Shown here piece after piece: positions 50,116 to 51,445 of a stretch of DNA of 56,440 bases. The notes beneath the pieces are model-generated. The model did not search any database, had not been told where the DNA came from, and was given only the letters and a program-made list of their open reading frames with translations. How positions within the stretch are numbered: the stretch's first letter is position 1; each line of letters starts with the position of its first letter. Position numbers and translations under genes: made by a program. The DNA is from an uncultured Schlesneria sp. (GTDB lineage Bacteria > Planctomycetota > Planctomycetia > Planctomycetales > Planctomycetaceae), in NCBI GenBank assembly GCA_903899985.1, contig CAIULL010000258.1, forward strand, positions 1 to 56,440, read 5' to 3'.

Positions 50116-50443
50116 ATCTGGAGATTCCGAAAAAAGTTGGCCGAGTTGGCCAAGTTCCGTATTTCATAGGCTTTTTGCAGGTTTGAACTTGGCCAAGTTC
50201 GCCAACTTCCTTCATTCTCACGTTATCCCCGTGAGTACTGCGGTGAAGGATTTCCCAAAGCCGCCACCCCACCACCCCTGCGGTGGAGGTTAACGGGCCT
50301 TTGCCCTGGGAATCAACATGATATTTCATGTGCGTGAATAATGTCTCGTGCCTGCTCTTAGTAAGGGCAAGGTTCCACCCGAACGGTCCTCTGTATTTCG
50401 TAGGTTGGTTCGAGCCATCGCCGCCGAACAAATCATTAAAAAA

Positions 50444-50877
50444 AGTTGGCCAAGTTGGTCAAGTTCCCTGTTTCGTAGGCTTTGTCGCAGGTTCGAAGTT
50501 GGCCAACTTGGCCGACTTCTCGGAGTCGGGCGTAATCTTCGGGCGGTGGAGGTTCCACTCGATCTGTCTTTTTATTCGCAGGATGCGACGAGTCATCGAG
50601 ACCCACCGAGTTATCGAAAAAAAGTTGGCCAAGTTGGTCAAGTTCCCTGTTTCGTAGGCTTTGTCGCAGGTTCGAAGTTGGCCAACTTGGCCGACTTCGC
50701 GGAGTCGGGCGTAATCTTCGGGCGGTGGAGGTTCCACTCGATCCGTCTTTCTATTCGCAGGATGCGTCGAGTCATCGAGGCCCACCGAGTTATCGAAAAA
50801 AAGTTGGCCAAGTTGGCCAAGTTCCCTGTTTCGTAGGATTTTTCGCAGGTTCGAAGTTGGCCAACTTGGCCGACTTC
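50444..50877. repeat. 179-bp tandem array (2.4 units)
   Basis: Three modules start at 50444, 50623 and 50802, exactly 179 bases apart. Besides the module, each full unit carries a constant linker (CGGAGTCGGGCGTAATCTTC, GGGCGGTGGAGGTTCCACTC, GTCATCGAG and CCACCGAGTTATCG). Because 179 is not a multiple of three, a protein frame would shift at each unit, so the array is not a coding repeat. Differences between units are few, so the duplication is recent. The linker preceding the first unit (50371-50443) is a diverged version. Confidence 0.8.
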
Positions 50878-51023
50878 GTTGTGCGAGCGGCCTCCCGACC
50901 CCGCACAAACCACCGACCGAAGAACTCCTGTGGATTCTCTTCCCATCGTTCCCTTCGTGTCCTTCTGTTAAAAAATCTTCTCTTCTATTCTGCTGTCATC
51001 ACGTCACCGCGAAATCTGGTGTC

Positions 51024-51150
51024 AAAGTTCGATCAAGTTCGATCGACTTCGACCATTCCTCGTAATTCATAGCGTTTTGGCGATCATTTCCGTGTTTTTT
51101 GGGGTGTGCGAGTTCGATCAAGTTCGACGCAGTTCGATCGAGTTCGATTC
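51024..51150. repeat. Related 9-mer array AGTTCGATC
   Basis: AAGTTCGATCAAGTTCGATC at 51025-51044 followed by GACTTCGACC, and at 51111-51150 four units (AGTTCGATC, AAGTTCGAC, CAGTTCGATC, AGTTCGATTCC). The spacer contains AATTCATAGCG, and the end reads CCCTTCATTCT; both match the corresponding parts of the first module at 50135-50216 (TTTCATAGGC and CCTTCATTCT). It is thus a divergent relation with another 9-mer. Confidence 0.65.
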
Positions 51151-51445
51151 CCTTCATTCTGCCCGAGCGAGTTGTCCAGTGAACCGCAGGATTCTTATTG
51201 CATCGTTAAACCGCGTCTCCCAGAGAAGCGAGTCCATCGGAATCGATCACGAGCCCGAGGTGTCATTGTGAGCTTGGTCATTGCCGTTACCTTTCACCGC
51301 CGTCAACCAACTATTCGTAATAAGGCTCGGCAACGTTCGAAGAAATCGGCTGGACGCCGATTCTCCTGCGCCGCTGGCTGCGGGTTAAACTAAGTGACGC
51401 TGACATCGTTTATCAGCGTCTCAAAGAGAAACGCGGATTCGCAGC

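Follow-up and report, generated by a model that had tools for sequence, protein, structure and literature searches.

Structure of the repeat region

The locus between positions 50116 and 50900 raises the question of what kind of element its repeated, inverted modules are and what keeps or spreads them. The window analyzed is a 56,440-nt stretch, contig CAIULL010000258.1 of an uncultured Schlesneria sp.; its genome is designated G000, the other genomes compared are G001, G002, G004, G005, G006, and G008, and L-numbers denote individual stretches. A CxxCxxCC-domain gene lies upstream of the array, and a group 1 glycosyltransferase gene and a UDPG/GDP-mannose dehydrogenase-like gene lie downstream.

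The window contains four modules of approximately 80 bp each, all on the + strand and spanning 50129-50877. Module 1 (50129..50210) begins 12-14 nt past the stop codon of the upstream gene. Module 2 lies at 50438..50519; module 3 (50617..50698) is identical to it over 82 nt, and module 4 (50796..50877) shares 96% identity with it. Three of the four belong to a tandem array on the + strand (50438..50878; period 179, 2.5 copies, 96% matches). The arms measure 24-29 nt, are 83-92% complementary, and are separated by 27-28 nt. The coordinates, arms, and period bear out the initial annotation, which had described four inverted 9-mer modules, three of them in a 179-bp array. Folding of module 2 as RNA resulted in -44.8 kcal/mol on the + strand (z -8.4) and -30.7 kcal/mol on the - strand (z -5.1). 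The window gave no Rfam match at the gathering score. Two 9-mers in tandem, with up to 2 mismatches, occurred 74 + 66 times in the genome, against 1 + 0 for the reversed pattern, and this abundance is not due to chance.

Dispersal and clade range of the module

A blastn search with one module returned at least 75 matches (E<=2e-6) on 32 contigs of the genome, a lower bound with 40 of 62 candidates scored. The profile search resulted in 101 matches without overlap, distributed over 38 stretches, and 75 of these were nearly complete. The covariance model detected the module in 6 of the 59 relatives screened and, across the order, in 6 of 170 genomes, every one from a single genus; copy numbers from this search are lower bounds, as at most 80 candidates per genome were scored for the 59 relatives and at most 27 for the 170 genomes. 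The matches were strong in G000, G001, G004, and G005 and weaker in G006 and G002, and the model found no module in nine other members of the genus (up to 80 candidates scored per genome). Across named genomes, the exact pattern matched 45 stretches, every one from an uncultured Schlesneria MAG. The expectation that something keeps or spreads the unit therefore holds in the main: the module is dispersed in the genome, restricted to one clade, and tied to another dispersed repeat.

Modules are more alike within a locus (83% identity, 97 pairs) than between loci (72%, 2678 pairs). Unit spacing ranges from 144 to 309 bp across loci and is mostly constant inside one array, whereas copy numbers and array lengths vary between close genomes. 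Several matches sit at contig ends, so the assembly probably breaks at arrays; the 140-kb contig C164 of G000, with module arrays at both ends (L061, L062), shows the same sign.

A probable GTAG-REP in the linkers

The linker between units had been described as constant. It is repeated, but a second dispersed repeat inside it had been overlooked. Linkers of separate arrays align mutually around GTAGGGTGCGGTCGAGTCTTCGAGGCCCACCAAATC and hold a common second dispersed element, GTAGGGTGCGGTCGAGTCTTCGAGGCCCACC, which, judged by its sequence form, is a GTAG-REP. A CRISPR array was rejected as a candidate, because the linkers are repeated too and are not unrelated spacers.

Decayed REPs lie on the + strand in the first linker of the window (50577..50609; profile E 4.4e-5) and in the second (50756..50788; profile E 1.5e-6). 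The first is called decayed because its foot reads GCAG, not GTAG, and it has no REP hairpin fold. A possible further decayed REP before module 2 (50400..50437, + strand) was read by eye and is absent from the profile matches.

Exact REP copies starting with GTAG numbered 27 in G001 and 15 in G004. Allowing up to three mismatches, we counted 9 REP places in G000, 53 in G001, 39 in G004, 10 in G005, and 8 of a variant in G008, and none in ten other genomes searched. Under a crude ORF rule with arrays unmasked, 8 of 35 REPs in G001 and 1 of 28 in G004 fell within predicted genes. The DNA fold of the REP consensus is weak; the stem is present at -5.9 kcal/mol (z -1.8), and 9 of 200 shuffles were as good. 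In the aligned stem, 82% of cells are paired versus 28-51% when the alignment is slid, and no pair shows a double change, with three rows that carry an extra loop base misaligned by one. Inverted REP pairs occur only outside arrays (L206, L215, and L239), whereas REPs within arrays are direct. Homology of the module core to the REP was also considered and rejected as too weak, the alignment score being reached by 165 of 5000 shuffles.

Architecture of the module and its hairpin

The module of approximately 79 bp is composed of an A-tract, tandem 9-mers AAGTTGGCC, a T-rich core TTCCCTGTTTTGTAGGCTTTT, and opposite-sense 9-mers. Of 75 copies, 43 have the A-tract. Fifty-six copies gave the consensus AAAAAGTTGGCnAAGTTGGCCAAGTTCCCTGTTTTGTAGGCTTTTTGCnGGTTTGAAGTTGGCCAACTTGGCCAACTTC, and AAGTTG at 9-bp steps is the most constant part of the module. 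The 9-mer contains TTGGCCAA, which is identical to its own reverse complement, and tandem 9-mer arms therefore pair in either sense. The hairpin proposed in the initial annotation is present as arms and stem, but its inversion, and with it the long hairpin, would be largely a by-product of the self-palindromic TTGGCCAA.

The comparison of copies weakens the RNA-hairpin option that had also been offered. The full module stem shows no covariation among 56 copies (4 double-change pairs versus 5.7 in shuffles), and the consensus fold of these copies is near zero. The bias of G-U over A-C is not significant with one copy per locus (43 versus 34, p 0.36; 90 versus 62 with all copies). In G006, the blocks and the core are kept, but the two iteron blocks are direct rather than inverted. 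A different 9-mer (AAGTTGAGC/AAGTTGAAC) occurs on both sides in the G002 copies, with TTGAGCAA on one side and TTGCTCAA on the other, and an inner 12-bp inverted match survived this sequence change. For these inner 12 pairs, compared between G002 and the other genomes, 20 double-change cells were counted versus 10.2 in shuffles (0 of 500 as high), and, by pair, 3 versus 2.8 (367 of 500). The inner stem thus seems to have changed in concert between two lineages, mostly as one lineage event, and such a change fits a cruciform or an inverted protein site alike.

Linkage and turnover of REPs and modules

In stretches selected for the module, 39 of 45 REPs from G000 and 32 of 32 REPs from the named MAGs have a module no more than 250 bp away. 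On the 5' side and within 60 bp, a REP on the same strand accompanied 27 of 86 modules in G000, 10 of 17 in G001, 9 of 12 in G004, and 23 of 81 in the named MAGs, whereas opposite-strand REPs in this position numbered one in G000 and zero in G001, G004, and the named MAGs. REPs on the 3' side numbered 26, 7, 4, and 12, respectively. The remaining 59 of the 86 G000 modules had no REP detected within 60 bp 5', and none was detected at the G006 and G002 modules.

For the converse comparison, 40 stretches were sampled from the 92 REP places of G001 and G004. An iteron lies within 110 bp 3' of 24 of 60 untruncated REPs, against 127 of 4000 random pieces, and on the 5' side of 16 of the 60. The motif CACGGATAAC follows 3' of 7 of the 60, against 12 of 4000 random pieces, and lies 5' of none. 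REP and module are also found apart from each other. Both repeats are dispersed and limited to one genus, REP and module share the same strand, and the arrays run head to tail.

Nine orthologous REP pairs were hand-picked from the blast list; L216/L229 ends at a contig edge, leaving eight scorable. Two of the eight have different right-hand DNA at the same REP: in L219/L224, an iteron module follows in G001 and other DNA in G004, and in L225/L060, a CACGGATAAC hairpin follows in G004 versus other DNA in G000, with an iteron at the contig edge. The other six share the right-hand DNA or differ only in part; it is kept in L206/L239, L217/L241, L221/L228, and L233/L050, L205/L226 share a short piece and then diverge, and in L212/L227 the iteron modules differ between orthologs. 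On the left side of L233/L050, a three-module array in G000 stands against a half module in G004, with 97% identity over 2.7 kb. Some exchange of neighbors at a fixed REP and local homogenization of modules are observed. Nine arrays, not including L231, could be scored. Four of them start at GTAG, since the DNA on the 5' side of their first REP bears no relation to the DNA preceding the later REPs, whereas the other five do not begin there.

Gene context

The upstream CxxCxxCC-domain gene is present in 15 of 15 genus genomes, but G000 and G004 alone have modules beside it (E<1e-7). The gene is followed by a REP in G001, and in G005, neither a module (E<1e-7) nor a REP was found beside it. With arrays masked, 9 of 191 module matches lay inside predicted genes; before masking, the count was 23 of 88 in G000, distorted by spurious ORFs in the arrays, and both counts depend on a crude ORF rule. 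Copies thus lie mostly between genes, and the initial statement that this is not a coding repeat holds in the main, also because 179 is not a multiple of 3 and the reading frame is broken at each window unit. Several copies in G006 fall in long open frames, with 5 of 13 examined frames lacking a Pfam match above the cut-off. This genome (L184-L201) gave 71 matches at E<=0.1, with direct half-units in 14 loci examined; several half-units lie inside long open frames common to paralogous stretches that reach about 1.1 kb.

Where a gene points its 3' end toward a module, the two share a strand in 45 cases and differ in 17 (45/62, p 5e-4), a count in which orthologous loci of related genomes enter separately, so that the 62 are not independent events. 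Under the unmasked ORF rule, a facing stop codon lay no more than 60 bp from the REP in 8 of 17 cases in G001, 6 of 11 in G004, and 0 of 9 in G000.

Search for a mobilizer

A co-occurring transposase gene had been proposed as something to check, and no linked one was found among the Y1 genes. G000 has 11 Y1_Tnp matches, and no AGTTGGCC module was found in their flanks (up to 1.5 kb, less at contig ends); the Y1 gene on contig C76 has a module 2.3 kb away. On the fragmented contigs of G001 and G004, 92 strict REPs were compared with 28 Y1 genes; no REP had a Y1 gene on its own contig within 5 kb, the closest being 5.8 kb away, and no cognate TnpA-REP (RAYT) gene flanked by strict REPs was found. 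Among the G000 matches, five proteins (L076-L080) carry the motif Y-xxx-Q-xx-HH, as does a sixth gene with two matches (C217); two carry YVERNP or YVERNA, and two are cut at contig ends. We take YVERNP to be the mark of a RAYT group. In G000 and G004, an orthologous Y1_Tnp gene has two diverged REPs in inverted orientation a few hundred base pairs upstream (L168:6322-6425 and L169:7504-7607), and the orthologous stretch of G001 (L170) has no REP match. The Y-xxx-Q-xx-HH subclass is reported to occur mostly in Cyanobacteria and Bacteroidetes (PMC6006769).

Interpretation and comparison with known systems

We consider it somewhat probable that two dispersed repeats, a GTAG-footed REP and a noncoding module of approximately 79 bp, make up the window array as a BIME-like mosaic between genes, the module being non-autonomous and spreading or arraying at GTAG-REPs. 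Several results weigh against this reading: the strict REPs without a Y1 gene within 5 kb, the modules of G000, G006, and G002 without a detected REP nearby, the six orthologous pairs with shared or only partly changed right-hand DNA, the five arrays that do not begin at GTAG, the weak fold and missing covariation of the REP stem, and the concerted change of the inner module stem. Units would be copied or recombined at GTAG-REPs acting as exchange points. As a linked Y1 gene is missing, the agent would be either recombination between REPs or a HUH Y1 protein that is encoded elsewhere and works on single strands, and unequal exchange or slippage may afterwards multiply the units locally. The modules would be non-autonomous passengers, and recognition of the DNA may be what preserves the inner 12-bp inverted match. 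The strand agreement of 45:17 would be expected from polar spread of 3'-end REPs; it could also mean function and, in that case, counts against the passenger reading. A quite improbable variant casts GTAG-REPs as docking sites, at which an unlinked HUH protein would insert, 3' of resident REPs, noncoding modules that can replace one another, among them the AGTTGGCC iteron module and CACGGATAAC hairpins; if true, a single mobilizer spreads several unrelated hairpin families. The evidence for docking is the two of eight scorable orthologous pairs with different right-hand DNA.

Among the rival explanations, a site for a clade-specific DNA-binding protein (nucleoid, partition, or regulatory) that recognizes the 9-mers, with the core and flanking blocks as the site and an incidental REP linkage, is rather unlikely in our view. 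The constancy of AAGTTG at 9-bp steps speaks for it, as do the G002 copies, in which the 9-mer differs on both sides as if binding specificity had moved, the retention of blocks and core without inversion in G006, and a second family in the same genome with AGTTCGATC blocks in direct order; however, no co-occurring gene was found, and copy number and array length vary among close genomes. The strand agreement, the REPs close to facing stop codons in G001 and G004 (0 of 9 in G000), and the better fold on the + strand would suit a 3'-UTR RNA element, in which the REP and long hairpin are co-transcribed with the upstream gene and stabilize or attenuate its mRNA. We regard this as quite unlikely given the 56 copies without covariation, the per-locus G-U count, and the direct blocks of G006.

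An intrinsic terminator on the opposite strand, with a stem followed by a T-run from the complement of the A-tract, is extremely unlikely: two terminator-like - strand sites lie inside modules 1 and 4, but the region has 4 such sites versus 3.4 in shuffles, and the orientation relative to upstream genes is opposite (45:17). The locus-specific, mostly constant unit spacing and the greater likeness of copies within a locus are what plain minisatellite growth at each locus, with no exchange between loci, predicts. This is very unlikely as the whole story and is disfavored because unrelated loci carry the same core and the same REP; it is kept as a mode of local array growth.

The preferred mosaic can be compared with described systems. 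Like the GTAG-REP families of PMC3733652, its REP combines a GTAG foot with a putative short palindrome and occurs dispersed, as singletons, inverted pairs, and head-to-tail clusters with flanking DNA. The initial annotation knew no named family of this form; this stands with respect to Rfam, but tandem GTAG-REP clusters carrying flanking DNA had already been described there, and arrays flank exopolysaccharide genes in Thauera (PMC3733652). Unlike those clusters, the carried DNA here is a dispersed family itself, also found without the REP (G006 and G002), and no REP-flanked Y1 gene was found for the strict copies. As in the E. coli BIMEs and REPINs, REPs and other motifs form a tandem mosaic; however, BIMEs hold inverse REP pairs, whereas the REPs of an array here all point the same way, with an unrelated module between them (PMC8266576). 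Class 3 TnpA-Y1 elements of Planctomycetes likewise form high-copy atypical secondary structures, but these have a CnGA foot rather than GTAG and flank the class 3 gene, and the Y1 proteins with a readable motif here carry Y-xxx-Q-xx-HH or YVERNP/YVERNA, unlike class 3 (PMC6006769).

The present case departs from earlier descriptions in two respects: the DNA carried along is a dispersed family in its own right, built as iteron-core-iteron, and several families of this sort occur next to REPs. Searches of open-licence literature, sequence strings included, turned up no description of the Schlesneria mosaic. According to PMC8266576, the mechanism of REP spread remains to be elucidated, and since relatives sharing a REP can differ in neighbors and array length, the exchange step is open to study by strain comparison. 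Long hairpins that stand out between planctomycete genes may be repeat mosaics rather than RNAs.

Other repeat families

A copy of the second dispersed family, with its AGTTCGATC blocks, lies at 51018-51152 of the window; its inner part, TTCATAGCGTTTTGGCG, resembles the iteron-module core by eye. AGTTCGATCAAGTTCGATC, with up to 2 mismatches, gave 77 genome matches against 0 for the control. At 50275-50310 of the window, CCCCTGCGGTGGAGGTTAACGGGCCTTTGCCCTGGG is similar to an arm of a further family of long hairpins (L059:8724-8834 and L062:982-1092). Further long hairpins of tandem short repeats were found at L045:6198-6301, L049:6315-6425, L065:2261-2332, L061:7388-7483, and L075:8639-8719, with arms of the types CACGGATAAC, TTTCGTG, ATGGGACTT, GGGGTCGGGCGTTC, and CACGAAG. 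Two of these hairpin types neighbor REPs in G001 and G004.
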